In this document: positions 17,180 through 28,315 of the stretch, piece after piece
Position numbering within the stretch: position 1 is the first letter of the stretch
How the letters are laid out: each line of letters opens with the position of its first letter
Source: an uncultured Gilliamella sp.
GTDB taxonomy: Bacteria; Pseudomonadota; Gammaproteobacteria; Enterobacterales; Orbaceae
Assembly: GCA_945276085.1 (NCBI GenBank)
Contig: CALYPO010000010.1
Location: 1-35,659, forward strand
Length of the DNA stretch: 35,659 bases
Direction of reading: 5' to 3'
The notes under the pieces: model-generated
Seen by the model: the letters and a program-made list of their open reading frames with translations, nothing else
What the model was told of the DNA's origin: nothing
Databases searched by the model: none
Program-made: the position numbers and the translations under genes

Positions 17180-18622
17180 TTAATTTACTTGTGAAAAATC
17201 CATTTCTGAATAGTTAACCCATTTGGTCTTTTTCACAATTTTGTAGCCAAAATAGATTACCAAAAATAGTGGTAAACCGACATATGTTGCTATTACGCCA
17301 TTCCAATCAATAGTATCTTGTAAGAATGCTTCATAATTTTGACCTAGTGTAATAATCAAACATAGGACAAAAGCAAATATTGGACCAAATGGAAAACAGC
17401 TTGAACGATAAGGTAACTTATTGATATCTAATCCTTGTGCAATATAACCTTTTCTAAAACGGTAGTGACTAATTGCAATACCAAGCCAAGCTATAAAACC
17501 TGTCATGCCAGACATATTAAGCAACCATAAATAAACTTCTTGATCTTTATACATCGAAGTTAAAAAACATAGCATAGCAATAATTGTTGTTGCGATAAGT
17601 GCAAATCTAGGTACCCCTGATGAAGATAGCCTTGAAAAGATTTTAGGGGCTTTCCCCTCTTTAGCCAATGCATAAAGCATCCGTGTTGAGGCATATAAAC
17701 CGGAATTACCCGCCGATAATACCGATGTTAAAATAACCGCATTCATAATTGCCGCAGCGGATAATAGTCCTGCATGCTGAAAAACTAAGGTAAATGGGCT
17801 GACACTGATGTCGGTTTCTTCATTACGTAATAAATTTGGATCCGTATAAGGAATGATTAAGCTAATGACCAAAATAGCAAAAATATAAAACAGTAAAATT
17901 CGCCAAAAAACTTGCTTCATCGCTTTTGGAATATTTTTTTCTGGATCTTTTGACTCTCCAGCCGCTATGCCGATTAACTCCGTACCTTGGAATGAGAAGC
18001 CAACAACCATCGCAACCCCTATCATCGAGGAAAAACCACCAACGAAAGGAGCATCACCAATAGTCCAATTTTGCCAACCTGCATTTTCACTCCCCTTTAA
18101 AATGCCAACAATCATCAACAAACCAATCACAATAAACACGATAACAGTGACAACTTTAATTAATGAGAACCAAAACTCGGCTTCACCAAATCCTTTTACA
18201 GAAATATAGTTTAAACAAAAGATGATGCTTAAAAACAGCAAGCTCCAAAGCCAACTATAACTACCTGCATCAAACCAATAAGAGATAACAAGCTGAGCAG
18301 CAACTAAATCTACTGCAACAGTAATTGCCCAGTTATACCAATAATTCCATCCAATTGCGAAACCAAAAGCCTCATCAACATAACGAGCGCCATAAGTAGC
18401 AAAGGTCCCTGACACCGGCAAATACGCCGCTAGTTCACCAAGGCTGGTCATTAAAAAGTACACCATAATACCAATGATAGCATACGAAAGTAATGCACCA
18501 CCGGGACCCGCTTGAGCAACCGTTGCGCCTGAAGCAACAAAAAGCCCTGTACCAATTGAACCGCCAATAGCAATCATGGCTAAATGCCGAGATTTTAAGT
18601 CCCGTTTTAATTTATTATTCAT
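17180..18622 (-). CDS. lysP: Lysine-specific permease LysP
   Basis: Inner-membrane amino-acid permease of the APC superfamily with 12 predicted helices, importing lysine by proton symport. In E. coli LysP also senses lysine for the acid-response regulator CadC. It is near-identical in pattern to E. coli LysP over most of its length: G-G-S-I-G-T-G-L-F-V-A-S-G in helix 1 (about 20-32), F-S-F-Q-G-T-E-L-I-G-I-A-A-G-E in helix 6, then S-V-L-S-A-G-N-S-G-L-Y-A-S-T-R-M-L-Y. The length of 480 residues is close to the E. coli 489, with a shorter N-terminal tail. There is no lysine riboswitch in the 218-bp upstream gap. Substrate specificity is inferred from overall similarity. Confidence 0.92.
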   Translation of the reverse strand: MNNKLKRDLKSRHLAMIAIGGSIGTGLFVASGATVAQAGPGGALLSYAIIGIMVYFLMTSLGELAAYLPVSGTFATYGARYVDEAFGFAIGWNYWYNWAITVAVDLVAAQLVISYWFDAGSYSWLWSLLFLSIIFCLNYISVKGFGEAEFWFSLIKVVTVIVFIVIGLLMIVGILKGSENAGWQNWTIGDAPFVGGFSSMIGVAMVVGFSFQGTELIGIAAGESKDPEKNIPKAMKQVFWRILLFYIFAILVISLIIPYTDPNLLRNEETDISVSPFTLVFQHAGLLSAAAIMNAVILTSVLSAGNSGLYASTRMLYALAKEGKAPKIFSRLSSSGVPRFALIATTIIAMLCFLTSMYKDQEVYLWLLNMSGMTGFIAWLGIAISHYRFRKGYIAQGLDINKLPYRSSCFPFGPIFAFVLCLIITLGQNYEAFLQDTIDWNGVIATYVGLPLFLVIYFGYKIVKKTKWVNYSEMDFSQVN

Positions 18623-18840
18623 AACAATATTCTTCTGTTTAAAAAGATTAAAAAAGACAATAAGAAAAATTCAGTTAATAGTGTAATACCGCAATCCTAA
18701 CAACAATTAACTAAAGATTAATCTAATTAATATGGTCATTTATCATTAAATAATGAAATGCGATGAAGTTTATCAAAAAAAAAACGACGCGAGATAAATA
18801 ATTCTAATAATAAAACTCGTTTATTAAATATTAGCAATAG

Positions 18841-19119
18841 TTAAACGCTAGTTAACTGTTCTAATTGAGTTAAATAATTTAAAGCTTGTACACGATTGTT
18901 GCCACACATCTCAATACAAGGCTTTAACCGACCACAAACTTTTGGTCTTGATGACTGTCCAAATAAGTCACATTGAAAATTAGCATTTAAATGAATGCAT
19001 GCAACTCCAGCGGGTTTACCATTTGGCATACCAGGAATCATTGACGAAATTGAAGGCGCAATACAACAAGCACCACAGTTTTTTCGACATTGAAATAAGC
19101 TATCCGTTGTTTTTTTCAT
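18841..19119 (-). CDS. yeiW: Cysteine-cluster protein YeiW (YkgJ/UPF0153 family)
   Basis: A 92-residue soluble protein rich in cysteine, with C-R-K-N-C-G-A-C-C near the N-terminus and further cysteines in C-I-H-L, C-D-L-F, V-C-G-R-L and P-C-I-E-M-C-G. The layout is that of the YkgJ zinc/iron-chelating family. The segment I-A-P-S-I-S-S-M-I-P-G-M-P-N-G-K-P-A matches what I recall of E. coli YeiW, whose gene also lies next to yeiP (efpL). Here it is divergent from efpL across a 104-bp gap. The molecular role is unknown; metal or Fe-S binding is inferred from the cysteine pattern. Confidence 0.85.
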   Translation of the reverse strand: MKKTTDSLFQCRKNCGACCIAPSISSMIPGMPNGKPAGVACIHLNANFQCDLFGQSSRPKVCGRLKPCIEMCGNNRVQALNYLTQLEQLTSV

Positions 19120-19223
19120 AATTTGACATTAATCGGTAAATTTTGTTGGTGACAATAGCAAGATAGCGCTAAAATAGCGAGCTAATTTTCAACTCTATTT
19201 TTAATAATCACGAAGAAGATATT

Positions 19224-19796
19224 ATGGCTAAAGCAAATGAAATAAAACGTGGCGATGCAGTCACTTATAACGGTAAATTATTATTGGTTAAAGATATTGA
19301 TGTTCAAAGCCCTAGTGCACGTGGCGCTAGTACACTTTATAAAATGCGATTTACTGATGTAAAAACTGGCGGTAAAGTCGAAGAACGTTTTAAAGGTGAT
19401 GATATTATCGAAACCATTGAATTAATTCGTCGTCCGGTTAGTTTTTCATATATCGATGGTGATGAGTATGTCTTTATGGATAATGAAGATTACACGCCAT
19501 TTATCTTCAAAAAAGCGCAAATCGAAGAAGAGCTATTATTTATTCCTGAAGGGGGAATGAACGGTATTCAAGTGCTAATGGCTGATGGCGAGGTAGTTGC
19601 ATTAGAGTTACCGCAAACGGTTGATTTAGAAATCATTGAAACTTCACCTAGCATCAAAGGTGCGTCTGCCAGTGCACGCACAAAACCGGCAACCTTATCA
19701 ACTGGCTTAGTTATTCAGGTTCCAGAATACATTGATAACAACGAAAAAGTGAAAATTCATATTGCTGAACGCCGTTATATGAGCCGAGCTGAATAA
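19224..19796 (+). CDS. efpL: Elongation factor P-like protein EfpL (YeiP)
   Basis: Paralogue of EF-P that relieves ribosome stalling at polyproline and related motifs. 190 residues, equal to E. coli YeiP, with three beta-barrel domains (KOW-like 1-65, OB 70-125, C-terminal OB 130-190). The tip loop that reaches the peptidyl-transferase centre reads S-P-S-A-R-G-A-S-T with Arg33, the unmodified-arginine form that distinguishes EfpL from the lysine-bearing EF-P. The C-terminal [13 protein letters not shown] and ending R-R-Y-M-S-R-A fit as well. A GAAGAAG sequence precedes the ATG. ttcA begins only 11-14 bp after the stop, so the pair is probably one operon. Confidence 0.96.
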
Positions 19797-19810
19797 TCTA
19801 TAAAATCGTG

Positions 19811-20707
19811 ATGAATACATATAATCAAAATAAATTACATAAACGGTTACGTCGTCTAACTGGAGAAGCCATTGCCGACTTCAATATGATTGAAGATGGT
19901 GATCGGATTATGGTTTGCTTATCAGGTGGTAAAGATAGCTATACGCTACTCGATATTTTATTAAATTTGAAAATCAGTGCCCCGATCAATTTTGAACTAA
20001 TTGCCGTCAATTTAGATCAAAAACAACCCGGTTTTCCTGAACATGTTTTGCCTCAGTACTTAGAGTCATTAGGTATTGAGTATAAAATTGTTCAAGAAAA
20101 TACTTATGGTATCGTAAAAGAAAAAATTCCTGAAGGCAAAACAACGTGTTCACTTTGTTCTCGTTTGCGTCGTGGTATTTTATACCGCACCGCAACAGAG
20201 CTTGGCGCAACGAAAATTGCGTTAGGTCATCACCGCGATGATATTCTAGAAACGTTATTTTTAAATATGTTTTATGGTGGCAAACTTAAAGCAATGCCAC
20301 CCAAATTGGTTAATGACTCAGGCGAGCATATTATTATTCGACCGCTTGCTTACTGCAAAGAAAAGGATATTGCAAAATATGCAGAAATTAAGCAATTTCC
20401 AATCATTCCATGTAATCTTTGTGGTTCACAACCTAATTTACAACGTCAAGTGATTAAAGAGATGCTAAACGATTGGGATAAAAAGTTTCCTGGTCGTATA
20501 GAAACCATGTTTAGAGCCACGCAAAATATTACGCTTTCACATTTATGTGATACCAACCTTTATGATTTTAAAGGTATCAAAAAAGGGGATATTGATGTCA
20601 ATGGTGGCGACATGGCGTTTGATCGCGAAGATCTCCCCTCAGTAGTTGGATTTGATCCATCTGACCTTGAGGATCAAGACTTAATTCTTTGGAAAGAAGC
20701 AAACTAA
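19811..20707 (+). CDS. ttcA: tRNA 2-thiocytidine(32) synthetase TtcA
   Basis: Iron-sulfur enzyme that thiolates cytidine 32 of certain tRNAs using ATP and a sulfur donor. The PP-loop ATPase motif S-G-G-K-D-S is near residues 38-43. The first two cluster/catalytic cysteines are in [11 protein letters not shown] (about 113 and 116), and a later pair in C-N-L-C-G-S-Q (about 201-204). The G-H-H-R-D-D-I motif is also present. I place the start at ATG 19811; a GTG immediately before it (19808) adds one residue and cannot be excluded. Length 298, a little shorter than E. coli (311) at the C-terminus. A strong terminator follows at 20741. Confidence 0.96.
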
Positions 20708-20740
20708 ATATTACGTCATTATCTACTTTTAAATAACCAT

Positions 20741-20770
20741 TTATCGGCGAATGAGTAAACTCGCCGATAA
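20741..20770 (+). terminator. Terminator of efpL-ttcA
   Basis: Perfect 10-bp stem TTATCGGCGA (20741-20750) / TCGCCGATAA (20761-20770) with a 10-nt loop, followed by TCTTTCCCC. It lies 33 bp after the ttcA stop and separates the housekeeping genes from the accessory operon. Confidence 0.75.
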
Positions 20771-20862
20771 TCTTTCCCCTCATTAATTTTAGAGTTCGAC
20801 ACTCATCATCCCTTACAAATTTTGATCTTCCTCACGAATTAACAAAAAATTAATTAATTTTA

Positions 20863-20891
20863 TTGTGGAATTCAAGTCATTTCAATAAAAT
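20863..20891 (+). promoter_or_regulatory. Sigma-70 promoter of the hydrolase-transporter operon
   Basis: TTGTGG (20863-20868) and TAAAAT (20886-20891) are separated by 17 bp. The -10 differs from consensus at one base. It overlaps the left edge of the palindromic operator (20887-20908), so a bound repressor would cover the -10 and the transcription start. Confidence 0.6.
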
Positions 20892-20908
20892 TGGAACGTT
20901 CCAATTTT
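20887..20908. promoter_or_regulatory. Perfect 22-bp palindromic operator (LacI-type)
   Basis: The core TTGGAACGTTCCAA is flanked by AAAA and TTTT, making a perfect palindrome of 22 bp centred on CG. LacI-family repressors typically bind such even palindromes with a central CG. The only LacI-type regulator in the window is encoded by the convergent gene ending at 23087, so it is the natural candidate. I found no second copy in that regulator's own upstream region. Confidence 0.75.
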
Positions 20909-20971
20909 AAATGCTTTATATCACCAAATAAAATGACAACAATTTGAATCATTGAATTATAGGAGAACAAT

Positions 20972-21799
20972 GTGAAACTACAGTTTTTGGGTACAGCAGC
21001 CTCGGAAGGTATCCCAAATCCTTTTTGTAAATGTGAAATCTGCGAGAAAACCCGCATACAAAAAGGTAAAAATATCAGGAGCCGAAGCTCCGTTATCATT
21101 GATGACATCATGCAAATTGACTTTGCACCCGAATTTAGTTACCAAGTTATGCGAGAAAATATTGATGTAACTAAAATTAAAGATTTGTTATTTACGCATA
21201 CTCATCCAGACCATTTTAATGTCGGTGATCTATTTAGCCGTATGGTAGATTATGGCTTTAACATTGATCACCCGCTTTATATCTACGGCAATGATATCGC
21301 AATAAATGGGTGCTTACATGTGCTACCAGGTTACAGCCCTGAACGCTTTGTGTTTAATTTATTGGTCCCTTATCAGACTATTACCAGCTCTGCTGGCTAT
21401 CATGTGACGCCTTTACTATCGAATCATGCAAAATGGGAATTTTGTTTTATCTACTTAATTGAAAAAGAGGGGAAAACTATTCTTCATGGTCATGATTCTG
21501 GCTATTTTCCTGAACTCACTTGGCAATGGCTCAAAAACAGCGGCAAAAAAATTGATTTAGCGATCTTTGAATGTACCTATGGCTATAAACAAGACGACCG
21601 CACCAATAATCATATGAGCATTGAAACTGTGATCGCCGCACAACAACGCATGATTAGTGAAAATATTTTTCATAATAAAACACAACTAATAACGTCGCAT
21701 CATTCACATAGTAGTGGCTTTATGCACGATGAATTAGTGGAAATATTCAAACCTCATAATATAGAAGTCGCTTATGACGGCTTAATAAAAACAATTTAA
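20972..21799 (+). CDS. PhnP-like metallo-beta-lactamase-fold hydrolase
   Basis: A 275-residue cytoplasmic metallohydrolase. The metal motif T-H-T-H-P-D-H gives His76, His78, Asp80 and His81. A further ligand site is seen in H-G-H-D-S-G, and S-H-H-S-H-S-S-G occurs near the C-terminus. An N-terminal cysteine cluster F-C-K-C-E-I-C (Cys19, 21, 24) resembles the structural zinc site of PhnP, the phosphoribosyl 1,2-cyclic phosphate phosphodiesterase, so a cyclic phosphodiester or related phosphate ester is a plausible substrate. Identity of the substrate is not proven. The start is GTG: AGGAG lies 7 nt before it, and the ATG overlapping it is followed at once by a stop. First gene of a two-gene operon under the palindromic operator; the transporter begins 13 bp after its stop. 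Confidence 0.88.
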   Translation: MKLQFLGTAASEGIPNPFCKCEICEKTRIQKGKNIRSRSSVIIDDIMQIDFAPEFSYQVMRENIDVTKIKDLLFTHTHPDHFNVGDLFSRMVDYGFNIDHPLYIYGNDIAINGCLHVLPGYSPERFVFNLLVPYQTITSSAGYHVTPLLSNHAKWEFCFIYLIEKEGKTILHGHDSGYFPELTWQWLKNSGKKIDLAIFECTYGYKQDDRTNNHMSIETVIAAQQRMISENIFHNKTQLITSHHSHSSGFMHDELVEIFKPHNIEVAYDGLIKTI

Positions 21800-21812
21800 C
21801 ACGGAGTTTTTT

Positions 21813-23039
21813 ATGTTTAAAATACCACGTCTACTGGTAATGATGTTTTTACAATATTTTGTGCAAGGTGCATGGAATATGGTTATTGGGGCAGTCCTCG
21901 CTGCTTATGGATTAAAAGAGATTGTTGGATCAACTTACTCTGTATTAGGTATCGCAACCATCATTTCACCGTTATTTATTGGCATGATTGCGGATAGATT
22001 TATTGCATCACAAAAAGTGATGGGCATATTGCATATTCTCAATGCCGTTGTATTATTCTTGATTCCTAACTTTGTTGAAAACGGCAATATTGCTGGTTTT
22101 TTAATCATGATTTTCATCGTTGGTTTATTATTCTATCCAACAACAGCTTTAGCCAATAGCGTTAGCTTTAGACATATAGATGGTGTACGTTGGTTCCCAA
22201 TTATTCGTGTATTTGGTACTATCGGCTTTATGATTGTAGGGTTGATTCTTGGTTACACAGGTTTTTCTAGTTCTATCAATTCATTTTTACTTGCTTCAGG
22301 TGCATCTGTTGTTTATGGCATTTATTGCTTCACACTACCTAATACACCACCAAGCAGCAAAAATAAAAAATTCTCTTTGCGCGATGCGATGTGTTTAGAT
22401 GCATTATCACTTTTTAAAGATAAATACTTTACTATTTTTATGTTGTCCACTTTTATCTTAATGATAACTAAAACAGCTTATAGTGCTTATTTACCGGTTT
22501 ATCTACCTGTTTTAGGATTAGAACCTGCATCAATGATGCAAATAGCTATCGCCACTGAAGTCTTATTTATGTTCCTTCTATCTTTCTTATTAGGTCGTTT
22601 TGGTTTCAAAAAAATCATTTTATTTGGCGCAATATGCTGGGTTATTCGTAGTTTAATGTTATCGTTAGCCGCCACTGCTGATGGTAGTACGATGTTCTTT
22701 TATATTATTGGCACATTACTTTTACAAGGTGTTTGTTGGGACTTCTTCTTTACCGCTGGTGATATTTATGTAGATAAAAAAGCAGGACCAGAAATCAAAG
22801 CACAAGCGCAAGGCTTACGTTTTATTGTTTCTAACGGCTTTGGCGTATTTATGGCCGCATCAGTTTGTGGATTTATCAACAATCGCGTAGTTACCGAAAA
22901 AACGCTGCCAAATGCTGGGCCACAATGGCAAGAATTTTGGATCTATCCTGCTGTAGTGGCAGCGATTGTTGCGATTGGTTTTTGGTTATTGTTCAAAGAT
23001 AAAGATGTAATAATGGCCCCGAAAGAAAAATCAAAATAA
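21813..23039 (+). CDS. MFS transporter, nucleoside:H+ symporter family (NupG/XapB-like)
   Basis: A 408-residue inner-membrane protein with 12 hydrophobic segments. Family marks of the nucleoside:H+ symporters are visible: Q-G-A-W in helix 1, L-G-I-A-x-I-x-x-P-x-x-x-G-M-I-A-D-R-F between helices 2 and 3, and Y-V-D-K-K-A-G-P-E-I-K-A-Q-A-Q-G-L before helix 11. Members NupG and XapB carry nucleosides, but other members have unknown or sugar-like substrates, so only the family is assigned. CGGAG precedes the ATG. It is the second gene of the operon with the PhnP-like hydrolase and ends at a strong hairpin shared with the convergent regulator. The context suggests it imports what the hydrolase or a downstream enzyme acts on. 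Confidence 0.88.
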   Translation: MFKIPRLLVMMFLQYFVQGAWNMVIGAVLAAYGLKEIVGSTYSVLGIATIISPLFIGMIADRFIASQKVMGILHILNAVVLFLIPNFVENGNIAGFLIMIFIVGLLFYPTTALANSVSFRHIDGVRWFPIIRVFGTIGFMIVGLILGYTGFSSSINSFLLASGASVVYGIYCFTLPNTPPSSKNKKFSLRDAMCLDALSLFKDKYFTIFMLSTFILMITKTAYSAYLPVYLPVLGLEPASMMQIAIATEVLFMFLLSFLLGRFGFKKIILFGAICWVIRSLMLSLAATADGSTMFFYIIGTLLLQGVCWDFFFTAGDIYVDKKAGPEIKAQAQGLRFIVSNGFGVFMAASVCGFINNRVVTEKTLPNAGPQWQEFWIYPAVVAAIVAIGFWLLFKDKDVIMAPKEKSK

Positions 23040-23061
23040 TCTGATTTTAATTATCAAATCA

Positions 23062-23105
23062 AACAATATTGTTAGTGTGTTTATCATTAGCAATATTGTT
23101 TTTTT
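23062..23105 (+). terminator. Strong terminator shared by convergent genes
   Basis: A 16-bp stem (23062-23077 with 23085-23100; the ten outer pairs AACAATATTG/CAATATTGTT are perfect and two inner pairs are G-T) with a 7-nt loop, followed by TTTTTA. It ends the hydrolase-transporter operon. Its right arm overlaps the last codons and stop of the convergent regulator gene. Confidence 0.85.
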
Positions 23106-25249
23106 ATCTCATCATTAATCAAATCAATAACTTGTTTTGAATCGTATTGTTTAGCCATCCACTTTGATAAATAATTACCTATGATGTTTTCAACACACCT
23201 TAAATTCACAGCCTTACCTTTTATACTATTTTCACGTATACCGTTAGCGTACTGCTGCTTAGCCACAGTGAGCCACGGATAGCTATTGATAATGCGTTGA
23301 TTTTGAAAAATAGAGTTTTGTGCCGTTGCCCCACCCAACAACGCAATCTGTTCGCTAATTTCTGGCGAATATAGCCACTCAAAAAAAGATTTTATAGCCG
23401 CATCTTTTTGACTATACTTTGATACGCCTAAAGAACCACCACCAAATAAAGGCTTATTACCCGGCACTTTAGCATACCCCACCAACGGCAAAATGTTACG
23501 ATGATTTATACAACTAAACAAATTCATATAAACAATTAGCATCGCTAACTTGCCTTGTTCAAATAATTTCACTGAATCTTGCCACCAAGTGGCATTAATA
23601 TTTTTGGCTAGTTTAATAAAAGAGTGTAATTGAGTTAACGTTGTAAGTGCTATAGCAGTATCGAGCTGAGGTTGGGGTTGATTAAATAATTTTCCACCCT
23701 GTGCATAATAGCGGACTAAAAATTCGGAAGCGATGAGTTCATCATTACCTGAGGTAAAACAACTACCAAACTCTACTTGTGACTCCCCATTTTGCTGTCG
23801 ATTAAAAAAAGCCGATATTTGATTAAAATCAGCAAAATTTGCCGGTACATCAAGTTGTTGACGAAACTGCTCAAAATAAGCGCGTTTAATTAACGGATCA
23901 TCAAAAAGATCTTTACGATAAAACAGCATTTGTACACTTGGATCGAACGGCAAAGCATAAGCGATATTATTCACATAACTAAAACGGTCTATTATTTCAG
24001 GCGTATAGCGTGTAAAGATATTGGATAAATCAATTTGCAGTTCAGATAGCGGTTTAAATATTGAAGGGGCAAACCAAGGCAAACCCGCCATATCAATCCG
24101 AATAATATCCAGATATTGATGATGTTCTATATGATTAAGTATGTGATAAATCTCATCAAAAGGCTTAACTATTAAATTAACATTAATACCACTTATTTTG
24201 CTAAAGTGAGGTAATAATTTGACTACGGCTTGGGTTGACGGGCTGGGAAGGATTAAAAAATTAACTGTATCACCATCGTTAGTCTTGTCGTGGGGCAATG
24301 AATCAGGAAGTAAGGTAAATCCTTTATTTTCAGGTAAAGTAACTGGCTGGTCCTCAATTAAGTTGGCAATTTGCCGACTTAATATCCCATAATTCATATG
24401 ATATTGATAAAAATGGTTTTCATAAAAAAAACTATGATTTGTTAATGTATAAATGGGTGGGCAAGATTGTAAACTTCCGAAATAATTAGCATTACGAACA
24501 AAATGTGCGCGCTCCATATCCATGGTAATGATGGCATCGTACTCTACTTGCTCATTTGCAAAAAAATTGAATGATAAATTATAGGTACTATTTGAAGGCA
24601 TTGAAGTAATGCAATTTATCTCGACACGATAATTTTGTTGCTTAAAGGTTTGCTCTAACCCTTTTTTAAAAGATTGTGAATGAGTATGTTGATCAGAATT
24701 ACTAAATAAACCAATATGCCGATAATTATTTTTTATCATTTCGCAGGCAATATCATGCCCAGCTTTTTCAAAATCTAATGATATGAATTTCAGCGCAGAT
24801 TTTGGTTTACGGTAAACAAAAATAATTTTTTCTTTATCTACTTTTAGCGTTTGGTAATAACTTTGTGCGCTGTCTAAAGCGCTGACCACAATCACCGCAT
24901 AATCGCGTTTTACAGCAATTTCTTGAATGAGTTGTAATTCAAACTCTTTTGAATCATAGGTTAAATATAAGGTTAATCCATAACCTAATCGATTTAAATA
25001 ACTAAAAAGCCCATCATATAAATCGGCGTACTGTTCAGCGGTAATATTGGGTAACAAGACCGAAATCGTTTTGGTCGTTCCTTGTTTTAAAAATTTTGCT
25101 TGTAAATTTAGTTGATACCCTAATGCTTGAGCGGCTTGCTCAACAAGTTTAATTTTTTTGACACTGACATTACCGCGACCATTTAGTACATTTGACACCG
25201 TACCATGTGATACACCCGCCATCTTAGCGATATCTTTAATCGTTGCCAT
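23087..25249 (-). CDS. LacI-family regulator fused to an ABC-type solute-binding domain
   Basis: A 720-residue three-part protein. Residues 1-55 are a LacI helix-turn-helix plus hinge (T-I-K-D-I-A-K-M-A-G-V-S, T-V-S-N-V-L-N-G). Residues about 60-305 form a LacI/ribose-binding type sensor domain (I-S-V-L-L-P-N, then G-x-x-S-L-D-F... and Y-R-H-I-G-L-F). After a linker at about 308-327, residues 328-715 look like a full type 1 extracellular solute-binding protein of sugar ABC transporters: D-I-I-R-I-D, A-Y-A-L-P-F-D-P-S-V-Q-M-L-F-Y-R-K-D-L-F, G-G-S-L-G-V, and a C-terminal helical lobe. There is no signal peptide, so it is cytoplasmic; the second binding domain is presumably a ligand sensor, not a transporter part. 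GGAG lies 10 nt before the ATG. It converges on the hydrolase-transporter operon and probably binds its operator. Confidence 0.92.
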   Translation of the reverse strand: MATIKDIAKMAGVSHGTVSNVLNGRGNVSVKKIKLVEQAAQALGYQLNLQAKFLKQGTTKTISVLLPNITAEQYADLYDGLFSYLNRLGYGLTLYLTYDSKEFELQLIQEIAVKRDYAVIVVSALDSAQSYYQTLKVDKEKIIFVYRKPKSALKFISLDFEKAGHDIACEMIKNNYRHIGLFSNSDQHTHSQSFKKGLEQTFKQQNYRVEINCITSMPSNSTYNLSFNFFANEQVEYDAIITMDMERAHFVRNANYFGSLQSCPPIYTLTNHSFFYENHFYQYHMNYGILSRQIANLIEDQPVTLPENKGFTLLPDSLPHDKTNDGDTVNFLILPSPSTQAVVKLLPHFSKISGINVNLIVKPFDEIYHILNHIEHHQYLDIIRIDMAGLPWFAPSIFKPLSELQIDLSNIFTRYTPEIIDRFSYVNNIAYALPFDPSVQMLFYRKDLFDDPLIKRAYFEQFRQQLDVPANFADFNQISAFFNRQQNGESQVEFGSCFTSGNDELIASEFLVRYYAQGGKLFNQPQPQLDTAIALTTLTQLHSFIKLAKNINATWWQDSVKLFEQGKLAMLIVYMNLFSCINHRNILPLVGYAKVPGNKPLFGGGSLGVSKYSQKDAAIKSFFEWLYSPEISEQIALLGGATAQNSIFQNQRIINSYPWLTVAKQQYANGIRENSIKGKAVNLRCVENIIGNYLSKWMAKQYDSKQVIDLINDEIKKQYC

Positions 25250-25483
25250 TGATATTAAACTCCATAAATAACCGGTAATAACCCACTCAACTTAACTAAC
25301 TATATGGTAACGTGTTGATATTAAAATCTTATTTGAACCTTAGATCATCACTCTATTTAATATAAGTTTGTTGAACCTTTATCAAACTTGCAAATGAAGC
25401 CTAACTAGTAGGTTAGTTTTAATAAGATATCGAGCATCATTGTTTTTTGATATCAAACTCGCTTATTAACCAATATTAAACAT
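25250..25483. other. Intergenic region between glnE and the LacI-type regulator
   Basis: 234 bp downstream of glnE and upstream of the regulator. It contains short dyads (CTAAC/GTTAG near 25401-25416; paired GATATC hexamers about 20 bp apart near 25427-25455) but no clear terminator with a T tract. On the minus strand a TATAGT hexamer precedes the regulator without a good -35. No copy of the TTGGAACGTTCCAA operator is present. Confidence 0.5.
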
Positions 25484-28315
25484 TCAATTTAACCATTTAT
25501 TCCAGCTCTGTTTTACTATTGCTCTTTCCTGTGTAAAACAAGAATTATCAACCGTACCGGGTAAAACTTGTAAGGCTAAACGATGAATTTCGTTACGCAT
25601 GTCGATATAAGCTTTTGTCAATTGCTGCGCTTGCTCATTATCCATAATTTGATATTTTGCAGCCAACTCTAAAATACGCACATTATCACTCCATTGCGTC
25701 ATTTTAGGTTGTTGATGAGCATAGTTAAGTACCAAAAACTGAGACAAAAATTCAATATCGCCAATTCCACCTTCATCAATTTTTAAATTAAATAAGTCTG
25801 ATTGTGTGGAGCCTAAATGGCTTCTCATCTTTTCGCGCATCTCTCTTACTTCAGTTTTTAATCGATTTTCATCTCGAGGTTGGCTTAATATACTATGACG
25901 AATCTGATTAAAGCGATCAATGAGTGCGGATTCGCCATAAACAGCTCTTGCTCGAACCAAAGCTTGGTGTTCCCATGTCCATGCTTCATTCATCTGATAA
26001 TCTTCAAATGAATCTAAACTGCACGCTAATAGTCCAGCATCACCTTGTGGTCGCAAGCGGACATCAACTTCATAAAGAATACCAAAGCTGGTTCGTACAT
26101 TAAATAGGTGAATTATTCGTTGTACTAGTCGTAAGTAAAATTGACGACTATCGATCTGCTTATCGCCATTGGTCATGCTATGAACGGGGCAATCATGTAA
26201 AAAAACTAAATCCAAATCTGAGCCATAACCCAGTTCCCATCCACCTAATTTACCATAAGCAATCACAACTAACCCTTTTTGATTATCCACTAAATGTTCA
26301 GGTTTACCATAACGACCCACCATCTGATTCCAGGCCATTTGAACAACAAAATCAAGGAGCGATTCTGCAACATAGGTTAAATGATCGCTGACTTTCATGG
26401 TCGATAATACATGCTCAACATCAGCCGCCGCGATATGCAGCAGTTGCATCTGTTTAAACTGCCGTAGTGCTTCAAGTTGTTGTTCTTCATCATCCGATAA
26501 AATACGTAATAGGTATTGGTAGAGCTGATTTTTATACTCTTGTGGCGCAAGTGTTTGATACAATGAATTAATATCAATTAGTTCATCAAGCAAAATTGGA
26601 TAATGTGCAAGCTGATCGCTAATCATAGGCGATGCACTGCATAATCGAATTAATTGTTTTAATGCTGTTGGATATTCTAATAACAGTTCTAAATAGGTGG
26701 TACGGCTTACAATATTTACCAATAATGGCAAAATACGTGATAATACCATCAAGCTATGACTATCATTACAGCAAGCATCAAGTAAACGTGGCATGAGTTG
26801 ATCGAGTATTTCCCGTCCACGTACGCCGATAGTACGTTTACCAATATCATTACGGAATTGTAAAAGTAATTGGTAGAGCTGATTAGCTTTCTCATCTGAA
26901 TAATCAGGTAATAGTGCTTGCACATCACTCAATTGCAAATCAGGCACCCATAATTCATCAAATTGGTCATTATAAGGTTTAGTTTTAGTTGAGGATTCAT
27001 TGTCATCCTCACCAATTAATTCATTAAATATTTGACGATTCGCCTGCATTCGAACAAATAATTCCGTTTCAAATTCTTGCCAAGTGCCAAACCCCATAGA
27101 CAATGATAACCGAGCTTTATTTAATTCATCGTCGGGAAGTGTTTGTGTTTGTTCATCATTGATTGCTTGCAACACATTTTCACAACGACGTAAAAATAGG
27201 TAGTTTTCACGTAAAATTGAGACTTCCTGATAATTCAATAACTGTTCATGTTCAATGACTTGTAGTGCGGTTAACAGTGAGCGAGTCTGTAATCCAACAA
27301 CTCGCCCACCACGAATAAGTTGAAAAACTTGTACAATAAATTCAATTTCACGAATGCCACCTGCACCCAATTTGATATTATTTTTTAAACCTCGACGACG
27401 AACCTCGCGTTCAATCATACTTTTCATGTTGCGCAATGATTGTAATACACTAAAATCAATATAACGACGATAAACAAATGGCTTGAGAAGTTGATATAGT
27501 TCAACAGTATAATGATCTTGTTGATTACCCAGCACTTTTGCTTTCACCATCGCATAACGTTCCCAATCACGACCTTGTTCTTGATAATAGTCTTCCATCG
27601 ACGAAAAACTCAAAACAAGCGGACCACCATCACCTAAAGGACGTAAGCGCATATCAACTCGGTAGACAAAACCATCTTCGGTAACTTGATCTAACGCTCT
27701 AATTAAACGTTGTCCCAAACGCGTAAAAAACACAGCATTATCTAATTCGCGACGACCGCCTTGTGTTTGTCCATGTTCAGGATAAGTAAAAATAAGGTCA
27801 ATATCAGATGAAAAATTAAGTTCTCCCCCTCCTAATTTTCCCATGCCCAGGATAAGTAAAGGTTGCGCTTGTCCTTGCAAATTACACGGCGTACCCCACT
27901 CTTTACAACTCAGTTCATAAAGCCAATCTCGCGCAGTGATGATAATCACCTCTGCCAAGTGAGTAAGTTGCAATAAAATTTGCTCATCGCTACTGGTTTG
28001 CGTTAATTGTGACCATTCAAGCCTCACTAAGATATAACGCCTAAATAATCTTAACGCTTTCATGAGCGTCAATTCATCAGATACCGACGCTAACTTTTGA
28101 TTTAACCATTGTTGATAGTTACGTCTTTCATCAGTCTGAGGGGGATTGTTAACAATGTCTGTCAACCATTCTGGAAACCGATAAAAAGCATCAACGATAA
28201 AATCACTTTGAACCAAAATATCTAAATTAACGTGAACATCATTAGGATCACATTGAGTCAATTGTGAGATAATTTTCTGTTTTTTATCATTAAGGAGTGA
28301 AGTTAATTCTGACAT
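25484..28315 (-). CDS. glnE: Bifunctional glutamine synthetase adenylyltransferase/adenylyl-removing enzyme
   Basis: Controls nitrogen assimilation by adding AMP to, or phosphorolysing it from, glutamine synthetase, in response to PII and glutamine. Two nucleotidyltransferase domains are visible. The N-terminal adenylyl-removing domain has [16 protein letters not shown] at 159-174; the C-terminal adenylylating domain has [16 protein letters not shown] at about 688-703, each with the catalytic G-S/S-S-D-x-D. The linker helices carry R-L-R-P-L-G-D-G-G and R-L-R-P-Q-G-D-A-G. 943 residues (E. coli 946), so intact. Only a weak GAG precedes the ATG. It follows a membrane-protein gene by 9 bp, with ygiF before that. 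Confidence 0.97.

Follow-up and report, generated by a model that had tools for sequence, protein, structure and literature searches.

A LacI-family regulator carrying a fused ABC-type solute-binding domain, and its predicted operator

LacI allostery, a textbook example, is widely employed as a component in synthetic biology. In LacI and PurR, effectors are contacted by an arginine of the core domain. The AraC-type regulator Btr carries a siderophore-binding domain. In a survey of LacI regulons (PMC4052901) the family is described, within the portion of the article considered, as the combination of a helix-turn-helix (HTH) with one effector domain; the same portion reports that the LacI-type effector domain also occurs with HTHs of the GntR type, and the words 'fusion' or 'SBP' have no occurrence in its main text. 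Engineered chimeric regulators carrying foreign binding domains are described in the part of PMC6079105 considered. Searches of the open-licence PMC literature gave, among the papers listed, no title or abstract beginning which describes a family of fusions between LacI and solute-binding proteins (SBP). The locus reported here lies in a window of 35,659 nucleotides, i.e. the whole stretch of DNA analysed, and encodes such a fusion.

The fusion protein and its distribution

The gene and its domains, as defined by profile and structure comparisons, are the following:

23087..25249, minus strand: LacI-SBP fusion regulator gene, 720 aa (single open frame; Pfam and structure matches)
25112..25249, minus strand: LacI-type helix-turn-helix, residues 1-46 (PF00356, E 1.4e-13; 20/46 columns invariant in 21 sequences)
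24314..25075, minus strand: LacI-type core, residues 59-312 (CcpA/LacI/PurR fold match; Peripla_BP_1 below cut-off; conserved signature lost)
23090..24265, minus strand: fused ABC solute-binding domain (SBP_bac_1), residues 329-720 (PF01547, E 1.3e-13; profile and fold matches)

The regulator is encoded on the minus strand by a single uninterrupted frame of 720 codons, starting with ATG. Pfam located the LacI HTH (PF00356) at residues 3-46, with 50.8 bits against a cut-off of 27, SBP_bac_1 (PF01547) at residues 340-630, with 52.1 bits against a cut-off of 26, and SBP_bac_8 at residues 399-635 (E 3e-10, above cut-off). The core was matched by Peripla_BP_1 (PF00532) at residues 60-216 only, with 17.1 bits, under the curated cut-off of 22.2, and the matches to LacI-type models of NCBIfam, all under cut-off, fell inside residues 1-251.

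An AlphaFold2 model of the whole chain reached a mean pLDDT of 86.0 and a pTM of 0.74, and its best PDB matches were sugar-type binding proteins: 6dtq (MalE3, E 1.6e-20), 5iai and 7ofy (SmoF). The SBP domain also gave profile matches to 5iai, 1eu8 and SmoF. Residues 1-327, modelled separately (pLDDT 86.5), resembled CcpA, LacI and PurR over nearly their full length, the match to 3oqo covering 331 alignment columns for a target of 333 residues (E 2.2e-17); the core is thus complete and, judged by the models, so are the HTH and the SBP part. Neither a signal peptide nor a lipobox was found when the N-terminus was read from the sequence, since the chain begins with the HTH itself.

These data confirm, by frame, Pfam and models, what the first-pass annotation had read from the letters, namely a 720-codon frame joining a LacI HTH, a LacI-type core and a full-length SBP, without a signal peptide. 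Its further proposals, namely that the protein is cytoplasmic and that a LacI regulator has captured a binding protein of the ABC type, find support in the profiles, in the models and in the wide conservation. The C-terminal part, tested as a solute-binding fold, proved to be one by Pfam, profile and PDB fold matches; neither is it a separate gene joined by misassembly, the same frame being found in relatives from many other genomes.

The source genome (67% complete, 126 contigs) contains a single copy of the fusion; six other matches are frames of ordinary LacI size. Nearly full-length fusions, free of internal stops, are encoded by 12 of 35 genomes of the same genus and by 20 of 44 genomes of the family, distributed over all of its 5 genera. 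Wider samples yielded the fusion in 18 of 394 genomes of the order, 15 of them within the family, and in 2 of 398 genomes of the phylum, one being the source genome itself. An assembly artefact or the readthrough of two genes was considered and rejected, on the basis of full-length, stop-free relatives in many genomes.

In a plasmid collection 50 records matched the fusion at E < 1e-60, 48 from Escherichia and 2, both chromosome-sized, from Proteus; identity was 40-42% over at least 99% of the length for the 40 records listed. The window gene, compared as DNA with E. coli genomes, gave no match; the E. coli homologue, found at the protein level and then counted by using its own DNA, is present in 46 of 5426 complete genomes, in 44 places on plasmids and in 2 on chromosomes. 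One chromosomal copy, in strain C10 (NZ_CP010132.1, 2829065-2831236), shares 96.7% identity with the plasmid-borne form.

A scan of named genomes detected at least 512 loci encoding some relative. Among the best 80, 20 feature an open frame of 686-753 aa, counted from the start of the match, and 58 end at 314-357 aa, corresponding, by length alone, to ordinary LacI proteins; one is cut by the end of its contig and one, of 664 aa, is a double-sensor protein of a different type. The latter, from a Hespellia MAG (L053:2326-4317), is a LacI protein in which Peripla_BP_3 is accompanied by a second domain, Peripla_BP_4, of another class than the fused SBP. The scan revealed the fusion in further Enterobacterales (Klebsiella, Serratia and Providencia), in Pasteurellaceae (Haemophilus parainfluenzae) and in Bacillota (e.g. 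Paenibacillus doosanensis, Romboutsia, Oscillibacter, Erysipelothrix, Clostridium clostridioforme and Hungatella). A single quick tree, which carried long-branch warnings, places the Bacillota group apart from a group composed of Gammaproteobacteria and P. doosanensis.

Separate SBP genes are also found near fusions, and only two of them (at L036 and L048) resemble the fused domain, with 23% identity. In a locus from Spirochaetia (L062:8001-10461) a separate lacI gene adjoins a separate SBP gene, whose product is 22% identical to the fused domain; this arrangement is a plausible picture of the state preceding the fusion.

The neighbouring operon and a predicted operator

In the window the regulator gene is part of a small cassette, whose remaining elements are listed below:

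20708..25483, no strand: 4.8-kb cassette flanked by ttcA and glnE and comprising operator, MBL, MFS and regulator (absent in 18 of the 20 regulator-less genomes of the genus that were evaluated)
20890..20905, no strand: predicted operator upstream of MBL, ATTGGAACGTTCCAAT, perfectly palindromic over its 16 bases and centred on CG (exact site in 20/44 family genomes)
20972..21799, plus strand: first predicted target gene, encoding a PhnP-related hydrolase of the MBL fold (Lactamase_B_2 by Pfam; 3g1p)
21813..23039, plus strand: second predicted target gene, encoding an MFS permease (Nuc_H_symport family; PF03825, E 3.8e-75)

Both genes point towards the regulator. The MBL protein contains the motifs THTHPDH and CxCxxC, as read from the sequence, and matches the PhnP structure 3g1p with E 4.2e-12; its score against the NCBIfam PhnP equivalog is 71.2 bits, under the cut-off of 272.25. 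The permease similarly remains below the cut-off of the NCBIfam nucleoside permease.

Within the family, regulator, MBL and MFS genes are present in one and the same set of 20 genomes out of 44. For comparison, the ttcA neighbourhoods of 20 of the 24 regulator-less genomes were evaluated, leaving out G019, G024, G031 and G041: in 18 of them the gap between ttcA and glnE measures 64-602 bases and contains no part of the cassette detectable by tblastn, and in the other two (L155 and L156) glnE was not found near ttcA, so that 18 rather than 20 neighbourhoods were judged.

Outside the family the MBL and MFS genes accompany the regulator together with a MgtC/SapB gene, in divergent orientation in E. 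coli, Klebsiella, Serratia, Providencia, Proteus and P. doosanensis, and in convergent orientation in H. parainfluenzae, in two related genomes and in the family genome G043. In the Gammaproteobacteria examined outside the family, and in G043, the module includes the MgtC/SapB gene (e.g. L019:4852-5562; L129:9672-10388); no such gene adjoins the module of the window. The P. doosanensis module (L031:1173-6303) is of the Gammaproteobacterial type, encodes a MBL protein 64% identical to that of the window and has a GC content of 0.50, against 0.56 around it; it may represent either a transfer or a contamination.

A scan for palindromes in the 300 bases preceding the MBL and regulator genes yielded ATTGGAACGTTCCAAT, before MBL, in the window and near-identical sites in relatives. 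When searched in the 44 genomes of the family, which are related and therefore not independent, the pattern ATTGRAACGTTYCAAT has exactly one exact match in each of the 20 genomes carrying the regulator (20/20) and none in the other 24. All 20 exact sites start 59-86 bases ahead of the predicted MBL start. In four genomes of one sister genus (G037-G040) regulator and operon are separated by about 36, 25 and 67 kb and by 1.2 Mb, and the operator remains by the operon; this points to a regulator acting in trans rather than to mere synteny. Within the family exact matches alone are informative, because the 9 sites found with one mismatch are no more common than the 13 places which fit a backward control pattern with no more than one mismatch; similarly, at up to 3 mismatches the window contains 2 sites for 1.5 expected.

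The pattern derived from the family was also used for searches outside it. Sites with at most 2 mismatches were found in all 11 loci of the Gammaproteobacteria and P. doosanensis group, where either the MBL or the regulator upstream region was picked for each locus, and in 5 of 14 loci of Bacillota, Clostridia included, the expectation from shuffled sequences being 0.02 in both cases. The other 9 Bacillota loci show no site at this threshold in the 300 bases before the regulator, and four of them (L040, L041, L043 and L047) none within 4 mismatches.

No site was found before the regulator itself in the window at up to 4 mismatches, so that autoregulation is not predicted there and was rejected. 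Inspection by eye of the regions before MBL revealed CRP-like sequences (TTTGA-N6-TCAC or TGTGACAGCTATCACA) upstream of the operator in L019, L044, L045, L133 and L034; these suggest a catabolite control.

On the whole, the regulator appears to control a single small operon for import and hydrolysis, formed by the MBL and MFS genes and found alongside it in many bacteria.

Location of the sensing function

Conservation and signature residues were evaluated on an alignment of 21 fusion sequences, drawn from both phyla. Invariant columns are 20/46 in the HTH, 2/254 in the core and 22/392 in the SBP part. Mean pairwise column identity is 0.73 for the HTH, 0.27 and 0.20 for the two halves of the core and 0.34 for the SBP part, with values of 0.08 for the 16-residue linker and 0.27 for the last 40 residues. 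The core is therefore the least conserved of the three domains and the HTH the most conserved.

The core was compared with that of 21 ordinary LacI proteins, i.e. five paralogues from the source genome and 16 others, a further paralogue (L003) having been left out by the frame filter. The effector arginine is present in 19 of the 21 controls and in none of the 21 fusions, where it is replaced by Phe, Leu or Ile; the corresponding residue in the window regulator is Phe194. Asp and Gly of the D..A.G motif occur in 19 and 21 of the controls and in one fusion each. The alignment is a distant one and in several fusions an Asp sits one residue off the usual place, so that the figures for Asp call for more caution than those for Arg.

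Ratios of dN/dS, obtained from four computable close pairs (a fifth was saturated), range between 0.08 and 0.21 for the core and between 0.06 and 0.24 for the SBP part. By this measure both parts are maintained under purifying selection and, the core values being about as low as those of the SBP part, the core may still bind something.

The first-pass annotation had suggested that the protein integrates two metabolites, core and SBP domain each binding a ligand of its own. Such an arrangement would agree with the complete fold of both domains, with the purifying selection acting on both, and with the sub-threshold Peripla_BP_4 matches found in the core of three fusion proteins (L035, L042 and L048) when eight from other loci were scanned. 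The suggestion is nevertheless not supported by the signature data, nor by the paucity of invariant core columns, and is considered unlikely: the arginine typical of ordinary LacI proteins is missing in every fusion, the D..A.G motif is disturbed, and the core, besides being the least conserved domain, lacks whole stretches, visible as alignment gaps, in the H. parainfluenzae copy and in two related ones. A relocation of the sensor fits better than two inputs. From the lost core signature, the pattern of conservation and the maintenance of both parts it was concluded that the core is kept as a scaffold, the SBP domain being the likely sensor.

Some indications about the ligand come from the neighbourhoods and from the binding domain itself. 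Several Bacillota fusions have ABC importers as neighbours, of the 2-aminoethylphosphonate or Ugp type and in every case scoring under the equivalog cut-offs; these loci also contain GDPD-type or MBL-type hydrolases and sometimes MgtC. GDPD and MBL are two unrelated hydrolase folds, often acting on phosphodiesters. GDPD or MBL genes were counted in 10 of 15 Bacillota fusion loci and in none of the other five, against 0 of 57 ordinary LacI loci, a count biased by the profiles, since 8 of the 10 positives had supplied the proteins used to build them; the out-of-sample positives are L038 and L042, both MBL by Pfam. The neighbourhood clusters were based on a longest-frame rule, which can choose a spurious frame where the G+C content is high: in L042 a frame of 1077 aa, initially taken as a lead, was withdrawn, having no Pfam match and lying opposite a real MBL frame. 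A dinucleotide-binding SBP (7c0v) is found at rank 36 among the fold matches of the regulator. Based on the GDPD/MBL neighbours and on this match, the leading guess, a tentative one, is that the ligand may be a phosphodiester, or a derivative or product of one. Within the SBP part of the fusions, Asp386 and Gly605 are invariant. The former aligns with the residue of 1eu8 (TMBP) which is taken to be the sugar-binding Asp70, and the latter with what is presumably the stacking Trp295 of the same protein; this alignment suggests a ligand unlike an alpha-glycoside.

A different role for the SBP domain would be that of an oligomerisation or docking module, tying the regulator to a transporter or to another protein, rather than that of a ligand sensor. 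Regulators known for sequestration, such as MalT and Mlc, can be likened to this model, and several Bacillota fusions do adjoin ABC transporters endowed with their own SBP. SBPs, however, dock on the outer face of importers, out of reach for a protein devoid of a signal peptide; moreover, Pfam revealed no ABC permease in the seven genes of the window that were scanned, from 17180 to 28315, the annotated genes around the E. coli copy include none, and the invariant Asp386 aligns with the sugar-binding Asp of 1eu8. A docking function is accordingly regarded as quite improbable.

The chance that the protein is an exported SBP with an accidental N-terminal HTH, as implied by the public name 'extracellular solute-binding protein' given in all 15 E. 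coli rows listed out of 46 (one record among those listed elsewhere reads hypothetical protein), is negligible, since the HTH is the most conserved domain, a signal peptide is lacking and a matching operator accompanies the regulator in 20 of 20 family genomes.

It is thus considered probable that the protein is a LacI-family factor in which sensing has moved from the core to the captured C-terminal SBP, and which controls the MBL-MFS operon via ATTGRAACGTTYCAAT. The HTH would bind the operator ahead of the genes for the PhnP-like hydrolase and the MFS permease, as predicted from strict co-occurrence and conservation. The core would serve as a dimerization and allosteric scaffold, a role suggested by the retained fold, the purifying selection and the loss of the effector signature. 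The SBP domain would close on a small cytoplasmic ligand, changing the affinity of the dimer for DNA; such a ligand might well be the compound taken up by the permease and cleaved by the hydrolase, perhaps a phosphodiester or its product. The regulator is most likely a repressor, an activator being possible.

For the fusions of Pseudomonadota and Bacillota as a whole, it seems moderately likely that they form a family which captured a SBP and lost its own pocket, where a closing movement of the MalE type is relayed to DNA via a ligand-blind core; they would then represent a natural replacement of the sensor obtained by addition and not by swapping.

Comparison with described regulators

If this reading is true, a natural family shows how new sensors arise and how a LacI core can come under the control of a second binding domain, the latter being a goal of biosensor designers. 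A gene of E. coli, known by the name of an extracellular protein, gains a predicted operator and a predicted target operon, and because both are predicted the function of the fusion is directly testable.

The fusion shares with LacI, PurR, CcpA and Cra/FruR the HTH, a complete core fold, a predicted palindromic operator with central CG and a local operon as predicted target. It differs from LacI/GalR repressors by about 390 additional residues, corresponding to a second binding protein, and by the loss of the effector arginine of the core in 21 out of 21 fusions. DNA binding and target logic are those of an ordinary LacI protein, while the arrangement of the sensor is not ordinary.

The SBP part resembles the ABC sugar-type SBPs (MalE3, 6dtq; SmoF, 7ofy; TMBP, 1eu8; 7c0v) in its two-lobe fold and in a profile match extending over nearly the full domain, and is distinguished from them by the absence of a signal peptide and by its union with a DNA-binding regulator. 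With respect to TMBP, a further difference is the invariant Gly605 at the position of the stacking Trp295. Partner ABC permeases, found beside several Bacillota fusions, are not among the seven window genes scanned.

Btr is likewise a cytoplasmic HTH protein sensing by means of a binding protein of the importer type. The binding protein is however the sole sensor of Btr, whereas the fusion adds a SBP to the complete LacI core, which belongs to another class. The engineered chimeras, as described in the part of PMC6079105 considered, similarly obtain a new sensor by joining a binding domain to a DNA-binding protein; in contrast to them, the LacI-SBP fusion is natural, and occurs in two phyla.
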